Source of the DNA: Phycisphaerales bacterium
GTDB lineage: Bacteria > Planctomycetota > Phycisphaerae > Phycisphaerales > UBA1924
Direction: 5' to 3'
DNA length: 64,000 bases
Assembly: GCA_040221175.1 (NCBI GenBank)
Contig: JAVJVK010000004.1
Coordinates: 790,268-854,267 of the forward strand
The translations under genes were made by a program, and so were the position numbers. Positions 6,631-39,925 of this stretch are shown here, piece by piece (position 1 is the first letter of the stretch; each line of letters opens with the position of its first letter). Below the pieces are notes generated by a model. That model was given only the letters and a program-made list of their open reading frames with translations. It was not told the origin of the DNA and ran no database searches.

Positions 6631-9600
6631 ATGCCCGAACTACCCAAGCAATACGACCCGAAAACCGCCGAGGCCAACGCTTGGCGGCGATGGGACGACG
6701 CCCACGCCTTCTCGGCCGACCCAAGGGCCGTCCTTCGCGGCGAACGCCCCGCCTACGCCGTCGTCATTCCCCCGCCAAACGTCACCGCCAGGCTGCACCT
6801 GGGCCACGCCCTGAACACCACCGTCCAGGACGCCCTCGTCCGTGCATACCGCATGAAGGGCTTCGAAACCCTATGGATGCCCGGCACCGACCATGCGGGC
6901 ATTGCCACCCAAACGGTCGTCGAACGCCGCCTCATGGAGAGCGAGGGAAAGCGGCGCACCGACTTCGCCCGCGAGGACTTCGTCGCCCGCGTCCAAGCCT
7001 TCAAGGACGACTTCGAGGCCCAGATCACCGAGCAGTTCAAGGCCATGGGCGCCTCGTGCGACTGGGACCGCCAGCGCTTCACCATGGACGAGGTCTGCGC
7101 CCGCGCCGTCCGAGAGGCGTTCTTCATCCTCTTCCGAGACGGCTTGATCTACCGCGGCAAGCGCTTGGTCAACTGGGACCCGGTGACCGGCACCGCCCTG
7201 GCCGACGACGAGGTCGACATGATGGAGGTCGACGGCTCGTTCACCTACCTGCGCTATCCGCTGGTGCATGCGTCTAAGAACGAACACGACCCGCGCGACA
7301 CCGAGCCAGTAACCTGGAGCGAACTGGCCGCGCGCGGCTACCCGACCGAGCACGTCGAGGGCGAGGACGAAGAGCCCGCCCACATCACCGTGGCCACCAC
7401 CCGCCCGGAAACCTACCTGGGCGACACGGGCGTGGCCATCAACCCCAAGGACGCCCGGGCCAAGGCCCTGCGCGGCCTGCGGGCCCAGTTGCCCATCGTG
7501 GGCCGCGTGGTGCCGATCGTCGAAGACGACTACGTCGTGCTACCCGACCCCGAGAGCGACGACGCCAAGGCAAAGATGGCCACAGGCTTTCTCAAGGTTA
7601 CACCGGCCCACGACCCCAACGACTACGAGATCGGCCGCCGCCACCACCTGCCCATCATCAACGTCATGGCGCCCGATGCCAGCATCAGCGCCGACTTCGG
7701 CTGGACCGAGGCCGACCCAGACGGCGCTCGCGATGCGCACATCTTCATGGGCAAGCCCCGCGAAGAAGCGCGCAAGCTCGTCCAGCGGGAATTCGAGGCT
7801 CGCGGCCTGCTCGCCGGCGTCAAGCCCCATCGCCACAGCGTGGGCCACAGCTACCGCAGCCACGCGGCCATCGAGCCCTACTTCACCGACCAGTGGTACG
7901 TCCGCGTCACCGACGACCGCCTGCGCGGCAGCGCCCAGCGCGCCCTGCACCGTACCCAGCGCGAGAGCGAGGGCTTCAAGCCCCGCACAGGCGTCAAGAC
8001 CGACTCGACCATCAAGTTCCATCCCGCTCGCTACGCCAAGACCTACGAGCAGTGGCACGACAACCTGCGAGACTGGTGCATAAGCCGCCAGCTCTGGTGG
8101 GGACACCAGATCCCCGTGTGGAGCAAGGCCTTCGGCACCTTCACCAACTTCATTGGCGAAGAAGACTCCAAGCAGGACAAGCTCGTCAACCTCATGATGA
8201 GCCTGCGCGACCATGATCCCTCGACGCCCATCGTCTACCGCCTGATCAGCGCCAGCGACATGGGCGTGCCCCTGCGAGACCCCGCCGAGATCCAGGAATG
8301 CGAGGATCTGGTGTGCATGGTCTGCGTGCGCAGGCCCGGCGCCTTCGAGACAGAAAAGTATGGCACGATCGAGTTCGAGAGCCTGCTCGAAGAGGCTGGC
8401 TTCGAGCGCGATCCCGACGTGCTCGACACCTGGTTCAGCAGCGCGCTCTGGCCAATCTCCACCATGGGCTGGCCCGAACCGGCCATCGCCGGCGAGGAGT
8501 TCGACGGCCTGCTCGAGGCATTCAACCCCACCAGCGTCCTGTGCACCGCCCGCGAGATCATCACACTCTGGGTGAGCCGCATGGTGATGTTCAACCGCTA
8601 CTTCCTCACCGACCAGGGCCAGGAGCCCGGCGCCGGCCGCGTGCCCTTCAACGACGTCTTCATCCACGCGATGATCCAGGACGGCCTGGGACGCAAGATG
8701 AGCAAGAGCCTGGGCAACGGCGTTGACCCGATGGACATTATCAAGAGCCACGGCGCCGACGCCATGCGCTTCACCCTCGCCCATATGACCACGCACACCC
8801 AGGACGTGCGCATGCCCGTCGAAGTTGATCCGCAGACCGGGCGCAACACCAGCCCCAAGTTCGACATCGGCCGAAACGTCTGCAACAAGCTGTGGAACGC
8901 AGCCCGCCTGACGCTGGGCATCCTCGATCAATCCGATCCGCTCCCCGATATGGTCGATCCCGACGAACTGGGCGTGGTCGATGCATGGATGCTGGCGCGA
9001 CTCGGCCAGGCCGTCGACGAGATCGACGCGGCGCTCGAGAACTACAACTTCCACGCCTATGCCGAGGTGTTCTACAACCTGTTCTGGCGCGACTTCTGCG
9101 ACTGGTACCTCGAAGCCATCAAGCCCACCGTCCGCGAAGACGCGAACCAGCGCGGCGTCCTGCGCCTCACCCTCGAAGCCATCCTCCGCCTGGCCCATCC
9201 CATCATGCCCTTCATCACCGAGGCCATCGGCGAGCAGTTGGGTCACCATCCGCTTCCCCAACTCGAAGGCTTCGACCTGGGCACGCCCGGCAAGGCAGGC
9301 ATCATGGCAACGGCGGCTTGGCCCGCCATCGACGATGCGCGCCGCAACGCCGACGCCAGCGCGTTGTTCGAGCGTGCCCGGGGCCTGGTCACCGCTGCTC
9401 GCGAAGTGCGCGCCAAGCACAACGTCAAGCCCAGGCGCATGGTCACCCTGCACGCACCCAGCGAACTCACCAGTGCCATCCAGCCCGTTGCCAGCGTCGT
9501 CAGCACACTGGCCGAACTCGACTCCATCACCACCGAGCCGGCCAACGGCGAGGCCGCGACTTTCGCCTACGACGGGTGGGAACTGCGCCTGTCGAACCTG

Positions 9601-9813
9601 GCAGACGAGGTCGATGCCGGCGCCGAACGCGAACGGCTGGAGCGCGAAATCGGCGAACTCGAAGGCTCACGCCGGACCCTCGAGGGCCGCCTCGGCAATC
9701 CCGGGTACACCGAGAAGGCCCCTGCCAAGCTCGTCGAACAATCTCGCGAACAGCTGGAACGCGTCAAGCAGGAACTTGCGACCGCGCGGCAGGCCCTGGA
9801 GCGCTTGAGCTGA
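6631..9813 (+). CDS. valS: Valyl-tRNA synthetase
   Basis: Class I aminoacyl-tRNA synthetase that charges tRNA-Val. The HIGH-type motif reads HLGH (in ARLHLGHALN) and KMSKS is intact (GRKMSKSLGNGVDP). The editing domain lies between, and the C-terminus carries the arginine/glutamate-rich coiled coil typical of ValRS (LEREIGELEGSRRTLEGRL). I place the start at the ATG at 6631; an in-frame TTG at 6616 would add five residues. The segment between IPVW (8110-8121) and DPDVLDTWFSSALWP is 96 residues long. It is much longer than in common ValRS and keeps only a CEDLVCMVC remnant of the usual zinc-binding knuckle. A TACACT hexamer at 6564-6569 could be the -10 of its promoter, giving a leader of about 55 bases. 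Confidence 0.97.
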   Translation: MPELPKQYDPKTAEANAWRRWDDAHAFSADPRAVLRGERPAYAVVIPPPNVTARLHLGHALNTTVQDALVRAYRMKGFETLWMPGTDHAGIATQTVVERRLMESEGKRRTDFAREDFVARVQAFKDDFEAQITEQFKAMGASCDWDRQRFTMDEVCARAVREAFFILFRDGLIYRGKRLVNWDPVTGTALADDEVDMMEVDGSFTYLRYPLVHASKNEHDPRDTEPVTWSELAARGYPTEHVEGEDEEPAHITVATTRPETYLGDTGVAINPKDARAKALRGLRAQLPIVGRVVPIVEDDYVVLPDPESDDAKAKMATGFLKVTPAHDPNDYEIGRRHHLPIINVMAPDASISADFGWTEADPDGARDAHIFMGKPREEARKLVQREFEARGLLAGVKPHRHSVGHSYRSHAAIEPYFTDQWYVRVTDDRLRGSAQRALHRTQRESEGFKPRTGVKTDSTIKFHPARYAKTYEQWHDNLRDWCISRQLWWGHQIPVWSKAFGTFTNFIGEEDSKQDKLVNLMMSLRDHDPSTPIVYRLISASDMGVPLRDPAEIQECEDLVCMVCVRRPGAFETEKYGTIEFESLLEEAGFERDPDVLDTWFSSALWPISTMGWPEPAIAGEEFDGLLEAFNPTSVLCTAREIITLWVSRMVMFNRYFLTDQGQEPGAGRVPFNDVFIHAMIQDGLGRKMSKSLGNGVDPMDIIKSHGADAMRFTLAHMTTHTQDVRMPVEVDPQTGRNTSPKFDIGRNVCNKLWNAARLTLGILDQSDPLPDMVDPDELGVVDAWMLARLGQAVDEIDAALENYNFHAYAEVFYNLFWRDFCDWYLEAIKPTVREDANQRGVLRLTLEAILRLAHPIMPFITEAIGEQLGHHPLPQLEGFDLGTPGKAGIMATAAWPAIDDARRNADASALFERARGLVTAAREVRAKHNVKPRRMVTLHAPSELTSAIQPVASVVSTLAELDSITTEPANGEAATFAYDGWELRLSNLADEVDAGAERERLEREIGELEGSRRTLEGRLGNPGYTEKAPAKLVEQSREQLERVKQELATARQALERLS

Positions 9814-10790
9814 GACGCGTCCTCCCACTCCTGCTCGTCTGCGCTGCCATGCTCACCGGCTGCGCCGGTGGCGCAACATCCGATGGCGTCCAGCGTCGCC
9901 AACCGTGGCCCTACATGCAGCGCGAGGGCGTGCAGATCACCACGCGAAACTACCACCTGCTCACCACCGCACAGCACCTGCCCATCGCCGACAAGCTCCC
10001 CGCCTTCCTCGAGGCCTCGCTCGCCCGACATCGCACGTTCGCCGGTTCCACCCTCGGAGGCCCCGCCCTTCCCGGTCCGCCCGGGCGCATGCAGATGTTC
10101 TTGTTTGCCGACCGCGAGGAGTGGGCCCAGTTCACGCGCGCAACGGTCGACCAGAGCGCACACCCTCTGCTGGCTATCGAAATCGGCGGCTACTCGGCCG
10201 GGGGGCGAGCCGTGTTGTTCGCACTGCCACCGCAGTATGACAGGCTGACCCTCAAGATCGCTGCTCACGAGGGCTGGCACCAGTACGTGCAGCGCGCCTT
10301 CCGAGAACCGCTACCGACCTGGGTCGACGAGATGATCGCCGTCATGGCCGAGGGTTTCGTCGTCGACGCCCAGGGAACCTATCGCTTCGAACCACTGCTC
10401 AACCCCGAGCGGCTCAGCCAGCTCCAAGCAGTCGACCAAGCAAGCCGATGGCGGTCGCTCGATCAGTTGCTCGACGGCGACCCCACGATCCTGCTGGGCA
10501 GCGACCCGGCCCGCGCGGTGGACTACTACGCCCAGCTCTGGGCTCTTGGTCTCTACATGGCAACCGACGCACAACGCTGGAGCGGCATCGAACGCCTCCT
10601 CCGCGATGCCGCCCGCGGCCGAATGCAACGCGAACTGGGCCGACCGCCCGCGAGCGATCTCGGCCTTGTTGCATTTCATCGATACGTCACGGCAAATCTC
10701 GACGCGATGGACGACGACTACCGCGCGTTCGCCAGGGCGCTACTCGACGAAGCCTCGGCCGTCACCCGGTCGGGCTCCACGCCAAGATAA
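9810..10790 (+). CDS. Lipoprotein with HExxH zinc-protease-like motif
   Basis: About 326 residues. The only start giving a complete lipoprotein signal (MRRVLPLLLVCAAMLTGC, lipobox LTGC, Cys18) is CTG at 9810, which overlaps the valS stop as CTGA. The next in-frame ATG (9849) would leave only four residues before the cysteine. The body contains AAHEGWHQYVQ, an HExxH motif at about residues 153-157, with WVDE 17 residues further on. This arrangement resembles gluzincin-type peptidases and DUF1570-like proteins, so an exported zinc peptidase is inferred. The last 73 bases overlap the 3' end of ftsI on the other strand. The motif is clear; activity and exact start are uncertain. Confidence 0.66.
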   Translation: MRRVLPLLLVCAAMLTGCAGGATSDGVQRRQPWPYMQREGVQITTRNYHLLTTAQHLPIADKLPAFLEASLARHRTFAGSTLGGPALPGPPGRMQMFLFADREEWAQFTRATVDQSAHPLLAIEIGGYSAGGRAVLFALPPQYDRLTLKIAAHEGWHQYVQRAFREPLPTWVDEMIAVMAEGFVVDAQGTYRFEPLLNPERLSQLQAVDQASRWRSLDQLLDGDPTILLGSDPARAVDYYAQLWALGLYMATDAQRWSGIERLLRDAARGRMQRELGRPPASDLGLVAFHRYVTANLDAMDDDYRAFARALLDEASAVTRSGSTPR

Positions 10791-12706
10791 GGCAGCACCT
10801 GCTCGACGATTCGACGCACCGCGGGGCCCGCCACGCTCGATCCATAATACTGGTTGCGGCGAATGGTCTCCGGCCCGGGGTCCTCGATGCTCACCATCAC
10901 CACCACGCGCGGACGATCCAGCGGCGCACCAGCAACGAAGCTCGAGACATACTGACGCTCCAGGTAGCCCCGCGCTCCCGGCGGCCGGCGATGCCAGGAT
11001 TCCGTTCGCTCGGGCGCCACCTGGGCGGTGCCAGACTTGCCGAACATGTTGTACGCGAAGGGAGCCTCGCGGCGCATTTTCTCGTCAAGCTTCTCGGCGA
11101 TCTCCACCATCACGGTGCGCGTCGCCAGCGCCGCCTCGGGCGAGACCGCTCGGCGCGCCACCAGCCCGTCCGGCCCGCTGACGCCCACGGCACTGAGTCG
11201 AAGCGAGGGCACTGTCCCCGCTTCGCTGCCGTTGCGGGCAAACGCGCAGTAGGCCCGTGCCACTTGCGCGACGCTCGTGGTCACTTCCTGGCCGAACGCG
11301 ATCGACACGTGGGTGTAGTCGTTCCATTCCTTCAGCGAGCGCAACGTGCCGTGCGCCTCGTCGGGAAGGCCCACCCGCGGCGGCTCACCCACACCAAAAC
11401 GTTGCAGCGCTGCCCGAAACTCGGCGGGCGTGAACTCCTGCGCCGCCAGCGCCATGCCGATGTTCGATGAGTTCACCAACACCTCGGCCCACGTCTGCTC
11501 GCCGTTGGCGCGCACGTCGCTCAGCCGCCGACCATTGATGAACGCCACGCCACCCGGCGCCGGCTCGAATACGCGATCGAGCAGTTCCGGATGCGCGTCG
11601 GTCAGCGCCGCCCACACGAACGCCTTGAACGTCGAACCCGGCTCGTACGCGTCTTCCACGACGCGATTCCGACCGATGGCAGGGTCCTGCTCACGCAGCG
11701 GATCCGGTCGGACGAACTGGAATCGCCGGAAGAGATCGACGCGACGCGGCCATTCGCTCCGTGGCACGCGATCGTCGGCCCACGGATACGGCACATTGTC
11801 GACCTCGCGCAGCACGTCGGCCATAGCCAGCACTTCGCCCGTCGCCGGATCGAGCACGATCACCATCCCGCCCGCCGCGTCCGCGTCTTCGACCGCCCGC
11901 GCAAGCTCGGCCCGCGCAATGCGCTGGATCTCCAGATCGAGCGAGAGGTGCAGCGGCTCGGCCGGTTCGGGCGTCCGCGCGGCGCCCCGTGCGATCCATA
12001 ACGGGCGGCCTGCCGCGTCGTGGGTGTACGTGATGGCGCCGGGCTGTCCTTCCAGCCGTTCGCGCATCGTCCGCTCCAGACCCTCGCTGTACTGTGGCTC
12101 GCTTCCGACCTTTCCCACGATCGACGCCGCCAGGTCGCCACCCACGCGATCGCGGATGGCCTCGCGCTCCAGGTGAATGCCCGGCAGCGGATGCGCCCGG
12201 ACGATTGCCAGACGATTATCATCCAGATACCCGCCGATGCGGACGTACCGGATCAACGGCTTCGGCTTGTCCTCGGTGGGATTGGCCTTGGCCGCCTCGA
12301 TCGCTCGCCGACGATCACGGTTCTCGGCCAGCGCCACCTGGATGCGACGATCGATATCGAAGTCGTTCTCGCCGGTCATCCACGCCATCGCCGCCGCAAG
12401 TTCATCGATCGAAATGCGGTCCTTCTCGAGTTGCTCGGCAATCTCGACCGGGTCGAAAAACACGCGGTGGACGTATCGCGATACGGCCAGTGGTCGTCCG
12501 CGCCGATCGAGGACGTCGGCACGCGGGACACCAATGGTGTGCTGACGCTCCCGGGCTTCCAGCACAGCCATGATCCGAGGAGGCGGCGCCGCCTGCAACA
12601 GGGCGACACGCACCACGATGACCAGCAGCATCGCCGAACACCCAATGCCCAGGGCCGGAGCAACCCATCGCACGCGATCGCCCGTTGGTTGCGTCTCACC
12701 GGTCAT
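10718..12706 (-). CDS. ftsI: Division-type penicillin-binding protein (FtsI/PBP2-3 class)
   Basis: Monofunctional class B transpeptidase that cross-links peptidoglycan, here probably at the septum. It has 662 residues: a short cytoplasmic tail, one membrane anchor (about 17-38), a dimerisation/pedestal domain and a transpeptidase domain. All three active-site motifs are present: STFK (Ser358), SSN (413-415) and KSGT (557-560). The start ATG lies inside the end of the upstream FtsL-like gene (11-base overlap), as expected in a dcw-type operon. There is no PASTA domain. It ends 73 bases inside the convergent lipoprotein gene. The FtsI name rests on cluster context and domain order. Confidence 0.9.
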   Translation of the reverse strand: MTGETQPTGDRVRWVAPALGIGCSAMLLVIVVRVALLQAAPPPRIMAVLEARERQHTIGVPRADVLDRRGRPLAVSRYVHRVFFDPVEIAEQLEKDRISIDELAAAMAWMTGENDFDIDRRIQVALAENRDRRRAIEAAKANPTEDKPKPLIRYVRIGGYLDDNRLAIVRAHPLPGIHLEREAIRDRVGGDLAASIVGKVGSEPQYSEGLERTMRERLEGQPGAITYTHDAAGRPLWIARGAARTPEPAEPLHLSLDLEIQRIARAELARAVEDADAAGGMVIVLDPATGEVLAMADVLREVDNVPYPWADDRVPRSEWPRRVDLFRRFQFVRPDPLREQDPAIGRNRVVEDAYEPGSTFKAFVWAALTDAHPELLDRVFEPAPGGVAFINGRRLSDVRANGEQTWAEVLVNSSNIGMALAAQEFTPAEFRAALQRFGVGEPPRVGLPDEAHGTLRSLKEWNDYTHVSIAFGQEVTTSVAQVARAYCAFARNGSEAGTVPSLRLSAVGVSGPDGLVARRAVSPEAALATRTVMVEIAEKLDEKMRREAPFAYNMFGKSGTAQVAPERTESWHRRPPGARGYLERQYVSSFVAGAPLDRPRVVVMVSIEDPGPETIRRNQYYGSSVAGPAVRRIVEQVLPYLGVEPDRVTAEASSSSALANAR

Positions 12707-34730: not shown

Positions 34731-35192
34731 TTACTGGGGAGCCTTGGCCAGTTCCTTGCCGGCCTCGCACTTGCCGCAGCAGGCCTCGGCGTCCTTGCCG
34801 CAGGCATCGCCCGCGCAGGCATCGCCGCAGGCGTCGGCAGCGGCCTCACCGGCCTCGGTCGAGATCATCTCGACCTGGGCGGCGTCGCTCGAGCACGAGG
34901 TCTCGCAGCTGGCGCCGGTCTCGCAGCTGCCCGCGACTTTCTCTTCGGCGCAGCAGCCGTCGGTGGCGGCCTCGCCCGTTGACACGAGGGTGGCCTCGGT
35001 CGACTTGGCGCCTTCCATGAGGGCGCAGCAGGAGTCACCCTCGGCGGCAACGGCGGTGGTGGTCACCTCAGCGCCGGTGATGGCGCAGGAGGAACAATCG
35101 CCCGACATCATCCGATACCCGGCCACGCCGAGAACGGAAAGGCCGGCGATCGTCGCGATCACGATGCTGGTGGTCGAACCGGTGCGCTTCAT
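34731..35192 (-). CDS. Cysteine-rich membrane-anchored protein, unknown function
   Basis: 153 residues. A short positive N-terminus (MKRTGS) precedes one membrane segment (about residues 7-25). The exported part then holds 15 cysteines in about 125 residues, with CxxC, CC and CxxxC spacings (GDCSSC, DSCC, DGCC, SCETGASCETSC, ACGDACAGDACGK, EACCGKC). The rest is mostly Ala, Glu, Gly and Thr. No family is recognised; metal binding or disulfide-rich surface protein are both possible. The gene is well delimited: GGAGG lies 7 bases before the ATG, a TATACC -10 near 35223, and a terminator downstream. Confidence 0.68.
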   Translation of the reverse strand: MKRTGSTTSIVIATIAGLSVLGVAGYRMMSGDCSSCAITGAEVTTTAVAAEGDSCCALMEGAKSTEATLVSTGEAATDGCCAEEKVAGSCETGASCETSCSSDAAQVEMISTEAGEAAADACGDACAGDACGKDAEACCGKCEAGKELAKAPQ

Positions 35193-35514
35193 CTGCTGCC
35201 TCCTCGGTGCTCGCAGGGCCGCGGGTATAGCGCGGGCGAGCTCATGTGTTGGTGGGTGTGCCCCCAAGCGTATCCACCGCGCGGCCCGACGCCGCCGGCT
35301 TCTTATCACCACGATACTCCAATCGGCCTGACTTGTTCCCTCAGGCAATGGGCATTATCCCTAATTCGCGCTCGGAGCCAGTCGGGTGTACGTCTGATAA
35401 CTTTCGATCCGGATAGTTTTGGCGACACAGGCACCCACTCGGCGTGCAGTGGCTCGCTCAACCGGTCGATGTCTGCTCAGACACAGCGTCGGAGCAACCG
35501 GCAGAAGAACAGCG
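35193..35514. other. Intergenic region between divergent genes (322 bases)
   Basis: No credible coding frame was found. On the minus strand TATACC (35228-35223) can serve as the -10 of the Cys-rich gene. The stretch 35290-35420 is AT-richer than its surroundings and contains TTGTTC (35333-35338), 17 bases from TATCCC (35356-35361), plus GATAAC near 35394. Any of these could start the coiled-coil operon; none is convincing. Confidence 0.4.
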
Positions 35515-36627
35515 ATGCCCAAGTACGAAGACCAGCACAGCGTCGAGCAGACCTCCGAACTGGGGGACGGTGGCACCATGGACGGCTCCGAAGAAGCCGA
35601 CGTGGAGAACGTGCTTGCCTCCATCGAGCAGGAACTGAGCGCCCTGGTCGAGCGATGCGAGCAGACCACTGCACAGCATGCCCGCGAGTTGACGCATAGG
35701 CAAGCCGAGATCGACCGAACGATCCAGATCGCCATGAAGCGGCAGATCGAGATCGATCGCCGAGCGGCCGAGCTTCGCAGTCTGGCGGACGAAGTGGTCG
35801 CCGCCGAAGCGCGTCTGTCCGACCGCAGGCGTTTGCTGGCCGACCGCCTCCGGCGGCGCCGAGCCCGCATCGATGAACGACTGACGGCCGCCGTCGACGC
35901 GCACGCCCAGCGTGCCGCGCAGGAACTGGAAGCTCGGGCCGATGAACTGGCCACGCGGGAAGCTGCGTGCGAACTGGCGCAGAAGGACTTGGATGAGCGT
36001 GCCTCGTCGGTTCAGGCCGAGCACGGAAGGGTGCAGGAGCTCCGCAGGCTGATCGAAGATCAGGCCTCACTCACGGCCAAACATTCGTCGGCCATGGAAG
36101 CGCACCTGGCCAAGCGAGATCAGGCATCGCTCGAACTGCTCGAGCAGTTGCGGGACGCCTGCGGCCTGGCCGACAGGGTGCGAGAGCTGAACAACGAGGT
36201 GCGCGAAGGCCGGCTGGAAGTTCGCGAGAGCCGCGAGCGCGCAGAACAGGCCGAGCGCGACCGCGCCGAGGCCCGAGCGGGCCTGGAGGCCGCGCGAGCT
36301 CGCATCGCTCAGTTGGAGCACCGCGTCGAGGAACTCAGCCGCGAAAACCTCCTGCACGAGCAACGGCTGGCACGCACGACCCACGAACTGGAATCCCGCG
36401 AGGCACGGGTCCTCGAACGCGAACGACGAATGGCAGCCGAGGCGGATCGGCTGGCCCAGGACCAGGCCACGTGCGACGAGAAGCTGCGCGAGCTCGGACG
36501 CCGGCTTGCGGTGAGCGACCGAGCCGAGCGTGCGAGGAGGCTCGACCCGCGTACGCCCCTGGCGATCAGTTCGATGGCGTTGCCGGTCAGCGCCCGGCGG
36601 CGGCCCGAGATCCGGCTGGTGAATTGA
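35515..36627 (+). CDS. Long coiled-coil protein, first of a tandem pair
   Basis: 370 residues, no recognised catalytic domain. After an acidic N-terminus (about 1-35), residues 40-345 are almost continuous heptad-like coiled coil rich in Arg, Glu, Ala and Leu (RIAQLEHRVEELSRENLLHE). The tail is basic and proline-containing (RRLDPRTPLAISSMALP...RRRPEIRLVN). There is no membrane segment or signal peptide, so it is probably cytoplasmic. It is 9 bases upstream of the second coiled-coil gene and shares its composition; they probably interact. The start is the first in-frame ATG after the promoter region; only a weak AAGAA ribosome site is seen. Confidence 0.72.
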   Translation: MPKYEDQHSVEQTSELGDGGTMDGSEEADVENVLASIEQELSALVERCEQTTAQHARELTHRQAEIDRTIQIAMKRQIEIDRRAAELRSLADEVVAAEARLSDRRRLLADRLRRRRARIDERLTAAVDAHAQRAAQELEARADELATREAACELAQKDLDERASSVQAEHGRVQELRRLIEDQASLTAKHSSAMEAHLAKRDQASLELLEQLRDACGLADRVRELNNEVREGRLEVRESRERAEQAERDRAEARAGLEAARARIAQLEHRVEELSRENLLHEQRLARTTHELESREARVLERERRMAAEADRLAQDQATCDEKLRELGRRLAVSDRAERARRLDPRTPLAISSMALPVSARRRPEIRLVN

Positions 36628-36636
36628 GGCATACAC

Positions 36637-38496
36637 ATGGGCGACACCGACATGGGACATGGCGCAGAAGAACGAACGCAGCATCCTCAGTCTGCGGGGC
36701 TGACCGAGGATATCCGCGGGGTCATGAGCGACATCGAGCGTCGCCTCGATCGACTGCGCGCCGCCCACGCCGACCGCGAGCGGGAGCGCGAGGAACTCGA
36801 AGCCCGTAGCCAAGCCGTGCGCGAGCACGCCCGCCAGCTCGAAGCCGCCCGCGAAGAACTCGCCGAGCACCAGCGTGCCCACGCCGAAGCGGTTTCCGCC
36901 GCGGAAGCACGGTTCGCGGAACTCGACCGGCGCGAAGAAGCCGCACGCACCTCGTTCGAAGAGGCCAAGGCTCGCCACGATGCAGTTCGCGCGGAGCTGA
37001 CCCAGCAGCGAGCCGAGCTCGACCAGACTCGCGAGGAACTGCAGGCCGAGCGTGACGCGTTCGAGGCCGAGCGCTCGCGGATCGAGCAACTGGCCGAAGA
37101 CGCAAGCCAGCAGGTCCAGGACGTCGCCGAAGACCGTGCCGCGCTCGAGGCCACAGCCCGCGAACTCGACGAGCGTCAAAGGGATCTCGACGAACAGGCG
37201 TCGGTGCTTGCGGACCGCGTTCGCGAGATTGAATCGCGCAGCAAGGGCCTCGATGCGCGTGCCGAGCAACTGAAGGAGCAGGATCGCAAGCTGGCCGAAC
37301 TCAGTCGCCAGGCCGCCGAACGCCAGGAGAAGCTCTCGGGCGACAGCTCCGATCTCCAGCAGCAGAAGCAATGGCTGGCCGAGCAGACACGGCAGACCGA
37401 CCTGCTGCGGTCACGCGTGAAGCAGCTGGAGTCCGAACTCGAGCGTGCGAAGTCCGAGATCAATGAAGCCCAGGCGACGACCGAAGCGCCGGGTGTTGAC
37501 GAGGCCATCGAGCGCGAGCTCAATGAAACGCGACAGAAGCTTCGCGATGCCGCGGGCATCATCGCCGACCTGCGCGAGCAGCTGGATGTCGCGCGCTCGA
37601 CGAACCCGGCCGAACCGAGCGACCCCGACAGCGCCCACATGCAGCGCCGCCAGCGACGCCTTCGCTTCGTGCGTCAAACGCTCCGCCAGGAGCACGCCAA
37701 GATCGCCAAGGCCAGCGAGTTGCTGCGGCAGCGCTCCGCCGCGCTCGCCCAGCAAGCGTCCGGCTCACCTGAAGCCGCTCGCGAACCCAGCCCGAAGCCG
37801 CCAAAGGCCTCGGGACCGCTTGCGGCCGTGGCCCGTCTGGGCATGGGCATGGCGGGCGTAGCTGCCGCGATCGTCGTGCTGGCGGGCGTCAGTTGGGTTG
37901 CCTCGGGCGAATTCGTCACGCCGACCTATGCATCGAGCGTGACCATCGGGCACGACGCCCGCGGTCGCGAGGCTCTCGCCGAGGACCTGGCGGGCTGGCA
38001 AGCGTTCCACGAGAGCCTGCTCGACGATCCGCGGTTCTACGAGTTCGCGGCCGAGCGCATGCGTCAGCGTGGCCTTCTGGACCTGGGCGACGCCGTCTCG
38101 GTAAAGTCGTTCGTGGAATCGTCGGTCGGCTGGGCCTCGGGCCGCGACGGCGAGTTGATGCTCGAGGTTCGCGAGCAGGGAGCGGATCGGTCACGACGCG
38201 TTGCCGAGACCCTGGCCATCGCACTGGTGGGCCAGGCCAATTCGGCCCGCGAACGTCGCCCCGACGGGCTGCCCAGCGTCATCGCGAAGGACGCCCAGGC
38301 CGATGGTCGACCCCTGACCAACGAACGACCGCTGTACGCCGGCGGCATCTTCGCAGGCCTCGTGCTCGTCAGCGCGCTCATGGGCGGGGCGGTGTCTCGT
38401 CGGCTCGCATCCGTGCGTCGGCAGGCCGCGGCTGAGGGCCACACCGACTTAGACGACATGGGCGAACAAAGCGAAGGCCGCATCAGCATCGGCTGA
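36637..38496 (+). CDS. Coiled-coil protein with Wzz-like two-TM C-terminus
   Basis: 619 residues. Residues 30-370 form a long coiled coil. There follow a first membrane segment (about 397-423), an extracytoplasmic domain of about 140 residues, and a second membrane segment (about 567-590) with a short charged tail. The loop begins PTYASSVTIGHD and has LLDDPRFYEFAAERMRQRGL. This resembles the polysaccharide co-polymerase (Wzz) pattern, in which a Y-x-a-S strand follows TM1 and an L-x-S/D-P helix follows. The topology places the coiled coil in the cytoplasm. GAGG lies 8 bases before the ATG. Proposed as a membrane anchor for a coiled-coil filament or a polymer-length regulator; both are inferences. 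Confidence 0.72.
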   Translation: MGDTDMGHGAEERTQHPQSAGLTEDIRGVMSDIERRLDRLRAAHADREREREELEARSQAVREHARQLEAAREELAEHQRAHAEAVSAAEARFAELDRREEAARTSFEEAKARHDAVRAELTQQRAELDQTREELQAERDAFEAERSRIEQLAEDASQQVQDVAEDRAALEATARELDERQRDLDEQASVLADRVREIESRSKGLDARAEQLKEQDRKLAELSRQAAERQEKLSGDSSDLQQQKQWLAEQTRQTDLLRSRVKQLESELERAKSEINEAQATTEAPGVDEAIERELNETRQKLRDAAGIIADLREQLDVARSTNPAEPSDPDSAHMQRRQRRLRFVRQTLRQEHAKIAKASELLRQRSAALAQQASGSPEAAREPSPKPPKASGPLAAVARLGMGMAGVAAAIVVLAGVSWVASGEFVTPTYASSVTIGHDARGREALAEDLAGWQAFHESLLDDPRFYEFAAERMRQRGLLDLGDAVSVKSFVESSVGWASGRDGELMLEVREQGADRSRRVAETLAIALVGQANSARERRPDGLPSVIAKDAQADGRPLTNERPLYAGGIFAGLVLVSALMGGAVSRRLASVRRQAAAEGHTDLDDMGEQSEGRISIG

Positions 38497-38543: not shown

Positions 38544-39353
38544 TTAGAGATTGATCGTGGTGGTCGCCATGATCTGCTTGCTGCCACTGGCCAAGTCGAC
38601 GCTGACCAAAGCCAGCCGCATGCCATTCTCGAGGGCGAGGTTCTCGATCCGCTGGGTCGAGAGCTTTCCGGCCGAGGCAAACTGGCGCAGCGTCTTGCCG
38701 ATCTGGCCATTCGTACTCAGGACCACCAGGCCGTACTCAACGTTCTCGGCAGCCGGCAGATGGCCGCAGTGCAGCAGGGCCAGCCCCTTCTCGTCCAGAT
38801 ACTCCATCGATACGAGGATCTGCGAAGAAGGATCGACCGGCATGAAGTCGACGTTGACCACCGCGTCGCGGTTGAACAGGATATCGAAAGCTTCGGCCCC
38901 GTAGGCGCCGATGGCGCCCTCGAGGGCCAGGTTGCTCTCGAATCGCTCGTTCAGGTCGTTGTACCGCAGGGAAGAGTGACCGAACGCGACGCCGAAGGCA
39001 ACCGCAGCGGCTGCCGAGGCAATCGCTCCAACGCGCCAGAAGCGCGACACGCCGCGGCTCTTGCGGATGCTCAAGGGGTTCTCGGCATCATCGGCCTCGG
39101 CGGCCTTGGCGATGGCGTCGGCCAGCATGGCCTCGCGCACGGCCGAGAGCACGCGATCGCGCAGGTCGTCCGCCGGCATGACGTCGGGGAGTAAGCCCTG
39201 GAGGTTCGCCAGGCGAGCCTGTTCGCTCAGCACGCGCTCCTGCGTGGCCGGCGGCGCCGCCTTGAATGCCGCATCGAATGCGGCCGACTCGGCTTCGTCG
39301 AGCATACCCAAAGCGTCGAGGACGGCCAGTTCGATGAGATCGATCGTGTTCAT
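38544..39353 (-). CDS. Anti-sigma factor, RskA-like
   Basis: 269 residues. The cytoplasmic N-terminal part (about 1-90, DLIELAVLDALGMLDEAESAAFDAAF) fits the anti-sigma domain of the RskA class. One membrane segment (about 107-125) is followed by an extracytoplasmic domain resembling the RskA C-terminal domain (VNVDFMPVDPSSQILVSMEYL). The start ATG overlaps the ECF sigma stop (ATGA), the classic sigma/anti-sigma arrangement. Inferred to hold the sigma factor at the membrane until an envelope signal triggers release. Confidence 0.85.
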   Translation of the reverse strand: MNTIDLIELAVLDALGMLDEAESAAFDAAFKAAPPATQERVLSEQARLANLQGLLPDVMPADDLRDRVLSAVREAMLADAIAKAAEADDAENPLSIRKSRGVSRFWRVGAIASAAAAVAFGVAFGHSSLRYNDLNERFESNLALEGAIGAYGAEAFDILFNRDAVVNVDFMPVDPSSQILVSMEYLDEKGLALLHCGHLPAAENVEYGLVVLSTNGQIGKTLRQFASAGKLSTQRIENLALENGMRLALVSVDLASGSKQIMATTTINL

Positions 39354-39925
39354 GTTGCGGCTTCCTCGACGGCTCTCTCTCGCAGACGAACCAATGCCCG
39401 GCTGAGGGCGGATTTCACGGTTCCGATTGGCGTGTCCAGTTCCTCGCCGATCTGTCGGAGCGTCTGCCCCCCTAGATACGCACGGATCACCACCCTCTGT
39501 TGCAGTTCGGGCAGAGTCTTTACGAGTTCCAGAACGTCTTTATAACGCTCGTGTTGCTCGAGACCGGTCATTTCCCCTGACCCGCCTCCGGGGAGTTGCC
39601 CTGCCGACTCGCCAAAAGCCGTCGTCTTCAGGCGAGCCTGGCTGCGGCGGAGCCGATCCACAAGGTGCCGCCGGCTCAGCAGCATGACCCACGTGACCAG
39701 GGCTGCCCGCTTGGGGTCGTACCGATCGGCGGTCTTCCACAAGCGAACGAAGATCTCCTGGACGGCATCCTCGGCGTCTGCCCGAGTGGGCATGGTCTGA
39801 TAAGCCATGCGGTACACGAGCGAGCCGAAGCGGTCGTAGAGGTCGCCGATGGCCGATTCCTCCCCCGCTGCCACGCGTTGCATGAGGTCGAGGTCTGCCT
39901 TGGGATTTCGAGGATGCTTGGTCAT
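39350..39925 (-). CDS. ECF-type RNA polymerase sigma factor
   Basis: 191 residues with sigma region 2 (YRMAYQTMPTRADAEDAVQE, IFVRLWKTADRYDPKRAAL) and region 4 (LPELQQRVVIRAYLGGQTLR, QIGEELDTPIGTVKSALSRA). The segment ALVTWVMLLSRRHLVDRLRR matches the SigK/RpoE-like group regulated by RskA-type anti-sigma factors. AGGTGG lies just before the ATG. Cotranscribed with its anti-sigma factor. Its regulon is unknown. Confidence 0.93.
   Translation of the reverse strand: MTKHPRNPKADLDLMQRVAAGEESAIGDLYDRFGSLVYRMAYQTMPTRADAEDAVQEIFVRLWKTADRYDPKRAALVTWVMLLSRRHLVDRLRRSQARLKTTAFGESAGQLPGGGSGEMTGLEQHERYKDVLELVKTLPELQQRVVIRAYLGGQTLRQIGEELDTPIGTVKSALSRALVRLRERAVEEAAT

Follow-up and report, generated by a model that had tools for sequence, protein, structure and literature searches.

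Two adjacent genes in a stretch of 64,000 nucleotides from a Phycisphaerales bacterium (hereafter the window) encode long coiled-coil proteins, and the second of these carries a membrane-bound tail resembling the polysaccharide co-polymerases (PCPs), which raises the question of what such a tail does at the end of a cytoplasmic rod. The coordinates of both genes and their parts are given in Table 1. The window's genome is 3.44 Mb.

Table 1. Features of the gene 1/gene 2 locus, with positions in the window and residues in the encoded proteins
Feature	Position	Strand	Description or basis
Gene 1	35515..36627	+	Coiled-coil protein of 370 aa with no membrane segment; detected in genus members only
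Gene 1 coil, residues 26-335	35590..36519	+	Periodicity; first part resembles the gene 2 head
Gene 1 conserved C-terminal peptide (DPRTPL...RRRPELRLV type)	36544..36624	+	Alignment of 7 genus sequences
Gene 2	36637..38496	+	N-terminal coiled-coil arm, TM1, PCP-type dome and TM2, 619 aa
Gene 2 long helix (27-271), which opens with the family head	36715..37449	+	Model, periodicity, head profile
Gene 2 helices 288-321 and 330-374; the latter holds the conserved basic juxtamembrane motif (R338, R341, L342)	37498..37758	+	Model, alignment
TM1, helix 394-426	37816..37914	+	AlphaFold2 model
Exterior domain, residues 427-563, PCP dome without crown	37915..38325	+	Model, structural and profile comparison
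TM2 and helical continuation, residues 564-601	38326..38439	+	AlphaFold2 model
ECF sigma factor and RskA-like anti-sigma gene	38544-39925	-	Convergent with gene 2

The gene pair and its coiled coils

Gene 1 and gene 2 are separated by 9 bases in the window and by 9, 12 and 25 bases in three other genomes of the genus, while their longest frames overlap in the remaining three. The ATG at 35515 was preferred as the start of gene 1 over a longer TTG frame from 35419, because conservation begins there in the genus orthologues. No promoters were found for the pair and terminators were no commoner than in shuffles, so it is the spacing that suggests that both genes are probably on the same transcript.

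A chance coil or spurious frames were ruled out by the orthologues and by hydrophobic periodicity, which was evaluated for the gene 1 and gene 2 proteins of the window, a period near 3.5 being heptad-like. Using the residue set ILMV, the best period was 3.54 in gene 1 and 3.50 in residues 22-325 of gene 2, with 0 of 500 shuffles matching in either case, and using AFILMV the periodicity was equalled by 2 of 500 and 3 of 500 shuffles, respectively. Residues 333-392 of gene 2 gave a mixed result (2 of 500 shuffles with ILMV, 285 of 500 with AFILMV). Gene 1 is also free of proline between residues 3 and 344. The preliminary description, which reported two neighbouring genes for continuous coils, is therefore borne out in that both frames are open and encode heptad-like coils, but its single 340-residue coil in gene 2 was overstated, because the full-length AlphaFold2 model (pLDDT 77, pTM 0.37) shows three helices separated by low-confidence breaks.

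The region preceding TM1 in gene 2 varies widely in length across the family, with 186-860 residues in one frame in 39 of the 40 aligned loci; these lengths were taken from the longest frame and are hence upper bounds, and in the one other locus of this set (L047) the arm lies in a shifted frame. The coil begins with a short head that is common to the genus, represented by a gene 2 profile, and to 16 proteins from other genera (hhalign, 93.2%). The latter profile was built from those proteins, 16 of 40, whose sequence matched a pattern written by hand, with genus members absent. At the other end of the arm, R338 of the basic juxtamembrane motif is present in all 30 full-length aligned sequences and R341 and L342 are nearly invariant. 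Two copies in the family are interrupted, one by an in-frame TAG (L117, genome G062) and one by a frameshift between TM1 and the dome (L047, genome G051), reflecting either sequencing error or decay. SMC/Rad50 and eukaryotic coil families were also considered for gene 2 and rejected, as their matches cover the coil only and lie far below the cut-offs (36.2 bits for NCBIfam SMC_prok_B, against a cut-off of 567.35), and Pfam gave no match in gene 2 to an ATPase head family, a feature of SMC/Rad50.

Gene 1 adjoins gene 2 in all seven genus genomes examined (the window and L056-L061), and the genes of L056-L061 are 44-74% (gene 1) and 48-77% (gene 2) identical to their window counterparts. The adjacency anticipated across related genomes is thus conserved within the genus but not seen beyond it, since, of 100 family genomes searched, gene 1 turned up in three, each a member of the genus, and in none of the 97 from other genera, a family count that is a lower bound with many first-look candidates unscored. 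Comparison of gene 1 with gene 2 using hhalign gave a score of 44.4 (72.6%), the best of 100 heptad-block shuffles reaching 32.0, and comparison with the head from other genera gave 25.0 (21.6%), with 0 of 300 shuffles as high and a best of 24.0. HMMER gave no significant relationship between gene 1 and the gene 2 head; here the shuffles of gene 1 are the one fair control, because high-scoring family-member decoys may include intact pieces of the head. Judged from these sequence comparisons, gene 1 is a probable tail-less paralogue of gene 2, and its derivation from a longer ancestral gene whose front half split away is disfavoured because gene 2 itself retains the family head (93.2%). The proline/arginine-rich peptide at the C-terminus of gene 1 is conserved in all seven genus sequences and is possibly a docking peptide. 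Tandem genes were also observed in another family (G056), where L053 carries two coil-dome genes of 871 and 641 aa, 36 bases apart, at 7198-11775 on the minus strand; these copies fall in two tree groups, each of which also holds one G044 copy.

The membrane-bound domain of gene 2

As reported previously, only gene 2 has two membrane segments around an exterior domain, and these are placed by the model at TM1 and at a TM2 helix starting at residue 564, with 137 residues between them (about 427-563). Before TM1 the net charge is +5 and +2; the exterior carries -5, the segment that ends TM2 (561-590) +2 and the last 29 residues -3, a distribution that fits N-in/C-in sidedness. The gene 2 protein is therefore predicted to run from TM1 through a periplasmic domain to TM2, with both ends cytoplasmic, the sidedness following from charge.

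For further comparison we used an alignment of 40 rows (A1), made of the window and 39 of the 40 loci fetched from 48 other matching genomes; eight of these genomes were not fetched with flanks, and one locus (L051) is absent from the alignment, having been missed by phmmer and later found by profile. AlphaFold2 on A1 gave a model with a pLDDT of 90.3, in which the segment between TM1 and TM2 consists, in order, of one strand, three helices, a pair of strands, a helix of 21 residues and a last strand. The modelled exterior has no long hairpin that could form a crown, and a single 21-residue helix (516-536) is present. Likewise, only 18 low-confidence residues follow the TM2 helix, and no kinase family was matched in Pfam or NCBIfam. 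Across the family both the dome and the juxtamembrane motif hold nearly invariant residues.

Profile comparison with hhalign placed A1 against 29 Wzc-type proteins, 28 from a search of the order and one from the window's own genome, selected after 2 of 31 loci (L102, L107) had failed a two-TM filter. Probabilities were 96.6-97.9% when TM1 was included and 95-96% for the exterior alone, whereas 40 column shuffles gave at most 0.5% and reversed profiles 0.4%; the C-terminal part of A1 alone gave only 8-22%. The A1 profile also reaches Wzc-type proteins, identified by eye, in two genomes (E 3.3e-4 and 1.1e-3). Weak profile matches in G063 and G027 were considered as divergent family members and rejected, as inspection by eye showed Wzc-type proteins that end in a kinase-like part.

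Structural comparison of the A1 model agreed with this, with KpsE (E 6.8e-6) and Wzc (E 1.1e-4) as the best PDB matches in Foldseek, and with Z-scores in a second structural aligner of 13.4 for Wzc, 12.4 for KpsE, 9.5 for WzzE (8bhw) and 8.6 for WzzB (3b8p). Among the 50 Foldseek matches listed, TM-scores by query were 0.33-0.44 and rmsd values 7.5-15.1 Å, low TM-scores that may be due to different placement of the TM helices and crown. Because HMG-CoA reductase (Z 8.8) is also similar to the dome taken alone, the fold by itself does not settle homology, and it is the profile comparison that does. Taking profiles and model together, we conclude that the exterior domain of gene 2 is homologous to the Wzz/PCP dome, and the likeness to polysaccharide co-polymerases noted at the outset, together with the proposed match to Wzz structures, is upheld. 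Sequence searches showed less of this relationship: at E≤1 Pfam Wzz (PF02706) matched neither gene 2 nor the tail of gene 2, and it matched 3 of the 40 aligned tails at E≤10 (best 0.0048), a PDB sequence search with gene 2 alone returned nothing at E≤0.01, and with a profile it returned Wzc at E 0.018 through two collinear stretches, each insignificant alone. A viral structure library contained nothing at E≤0.001.

The closest known systems differ from gene 2 in what surrounds the dome. The KpsE dome, as described in the cited part of PMC11041684, consists of a four-stranded sheet and short helices, with the last strand before the C-terminal TM helix, and gene 2 resembles this class-3 PCP, its best Foldseek match, in TM1, in a four-stranded dome and in the last strand before TM2; however, KpsE has a helical-hairpin crown, which is missing from gene 2, and in gene 2 TM1 is preceded by an additional long coil. 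Wzc and other BY-kinase PCP-2 proteins share the dome between two TM helices but carry both a crown and a C-terminal tyrosine kinase domain, which gene 2 lacks. Compared with the PCP-1 proteins WzzE and WzzB, which have the same dome fold, the gene 2 exterior is about half the length and is preceded by an N-terminal arm of hundreds of residues. PCPs are described in a section of PMC12220298 as having an extended helical region in the periplasm with coiled-coil motifs, the crown, 'with few exceptions'. Since gene 2 has no crown and no glycan context in the window, we class it as a variant on the PCP fold and not as a PCP. By analogy only, it can also be compared with the eukaryotic golgins, which in the portion of PMC4707255 cited are long cytoplasmic coiled coils fixed at the C-terminal end, as in gene 2, although the gene 2 anchor is a two-TM bacterial domain and no homology is claimed.

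Distribution and gene neighbourhood

A search with the gene 2 tail matched 49 of 61 genomes (35 of 37 in the family), and a dome profile matched 43 of 61 sampled genomes of the order (14 of 16 in the family part), with a single match per genome in 40 of these 43. The dome profile found no match in 18 of the 61 order genomes, some of them large and nearly complete, so these either do without the gene 2 family or hold copies too divergent for the profile to find. In wider samples at least 24 of 148 genomes of the class matched, 21 of them in the order, as did at least 15 of 195 genomes of the phylum, with none found outside the class; part of the candidates were scored, and both counts are therefore lower bounds. 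Outside the order, G139 and G159 carry both coil and dome, the G159 copy lying near a contig start with an incomplete arm, while a match in G096 proved to be a different protein.

Scanning of 17 neighbouring frames in the window showed housekeeping, transport or regulatory genes wherever Pfam matched, including dxs, a polyprenyl synthase, ExbB/MotA, EVE, cyclophilin and an ABC ATPase, as well as genes for an ECF sigma factor and a likely anti-sigma factor. No glycan or polysaccharide gene was found among these 17 frames, four of which had no Pfam match. In the other loci, where recurrent neighbours only were looked at, an anti-sigma cluster recurs in 18, a sigma cluster in 14, and an EVE gene is also recurrent; a further cluster occurs in 10 loci, and its one scanned member is MqnE-like (423 bits against a cut-off of 434.55). 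A cysteine-rich protein without a Pfam match is encoded at 34731-35348 on the minus strand, with relatives in five loci, all of the genus.

The window's genome has a separate Wzc-type gene elsewhere (L076), which by eye has a kinase-like end and stands beside an exosortase-like frame, and this is likely the surface-glycan locus of the organism. Wzz matches showed no link with the gene 2 family, occurring in 18 of the 43 genomes that carry it and in 7 of the other 18 (Fisher p = 1). This is weak evidence because PF02706 detects poorly here, and the Wzc-type gene of the window's own genome itself scores below the PF02706 cut-off. The polymer-length role suggested for the exterior domain is thus weakly counted against, both by the window neighbours and by this missing link.

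Candidate roles for the gene 2 protein

The most economical reading follows from the anatomy, in which a dome stripped of crown and kinase is joined to a cytoplasmic rod. We infer, with a confidence that is evenly balanced, that gene 2 is a coiled-coil scaffold or tether in the cytoplasm, anchored in the inner membrane, with the dome serving as anchor and oligomeriser. By analogy with other PCPs, the dome and TM helices would bring a number of copies together as a ring or patch, from which a coiled-coil bundle of tens of nanometres would project into the cytoplasm; an α-helix usually rises 0.15 nm per residue, and the 245 helical residues of the longest helix would thus span about 36 nm. Binding sites for partners, such as the protein itself, a filament, the nucleoid or a membrane, could then lie in the distal head and in the basic helix next to TM1, and in the genus alone gene 1 may co-assemble with the gene 2 arm or extend it. 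The dome would perhaps touch an envelope polymer rather than set its chain length. The recurrence of tandem partners, gene 1 in the genus and the coil-dome pair in G056, was counted in favour of this scaffold, and the 18 order genomes lacking a match were counted against it.

The main rival is a role in a glycan machine, where gene 2 would be a divergent polysaccharide co-polymerase whose dome ring serves a glycan polymerase or exporter, and whose arm either takes over regulation from the kinase or brings in glycan enzymes. Homology of the dome to Wzc, KpsE and WzzE speaks for it, as does the octameric cage formed by the class-3 PCP KpsE round an ABC transporter (PMC11041684, in the part cited). 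However, gene 2 has neither crown nor kinase domain, no polysaccharide gene was seen among the scanned window neighbours, co-occurrence with Wzz is lacking (a weak point), and the genome has its separate Wzc-type gene; we therefore regard this role as a tentative alternative with a limited chance of being correct. A link between envelope and chromosome, in which arm or head would hold the nucleoid or segregation proteins at the membrane, is suggested only by analogy with pneumococcus, where capsule, division and segregation are linked through the capsule proteins CpsC/CpsD, RocS and ParB (PMC7022226, as far as the cited text goes) and CpsD, RocS and ParB act together. RocS with CpsC/CpsD resembles gene 2 in that capsule-type membrane proteins are joined to inner-cell organisation, and an arm this long, tens of nanometres, could extend as far as the nucleoid, but RocS is a separate DNA-binding protein whereas gene 2 is one chain, in which Pfam and NCBIfam scans matched no DNA-binding family. 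Its SMC and Rad50 matches being coil only and far below the cut-offs, this link is unlikely. That gene 2 is an inert or decaying membrane protein, with the coil as filler of biased composition, would accord with the widely varying arm and the two interrupted copies, but 35 of 37 family genomes retain the gene, some dome and juxtamembrane residues are nearly invariant and the head is common to the genus and other genera, which makes this the least credible explanation by far.

Returning to the scaffold, a more far-reaching form of it would have inner-membrane rings of crownless PCP domes carrying coiled-coil brushes that extend into the cytoplasm and that gene 1, as a soluble tail-less partner, links into a cortex organising division, shape or the nucleoid, and this we consider improbable. 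It bears on an expectation that the phylum has few standard division and shape proteins, of which one part stood: a search for FtsZ (PF00091), positive in 13 of 14 controls, found it in none of the 61 genomes sampled in the order, but MreB is present in the window's own genome. Division without FtsZ in PVC bacteria has been called a major mystery (PMC5147048, in the passage cited), and we found no description of the gene 2 protein in the open-licence PubMed Central literature.

The gene 2 protein would join envelope to cytoplasm in one chain, in 43 of 61 genomes of an order that appears to lack FtsZ, and a PCP dome without crown or kinase would separate the dome from control of glycan chain length. 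If the brush and cortex arrangement were true, it would amount to a membrane-nucleated cytoskeleton of a new kind in this FtsZ-less order.
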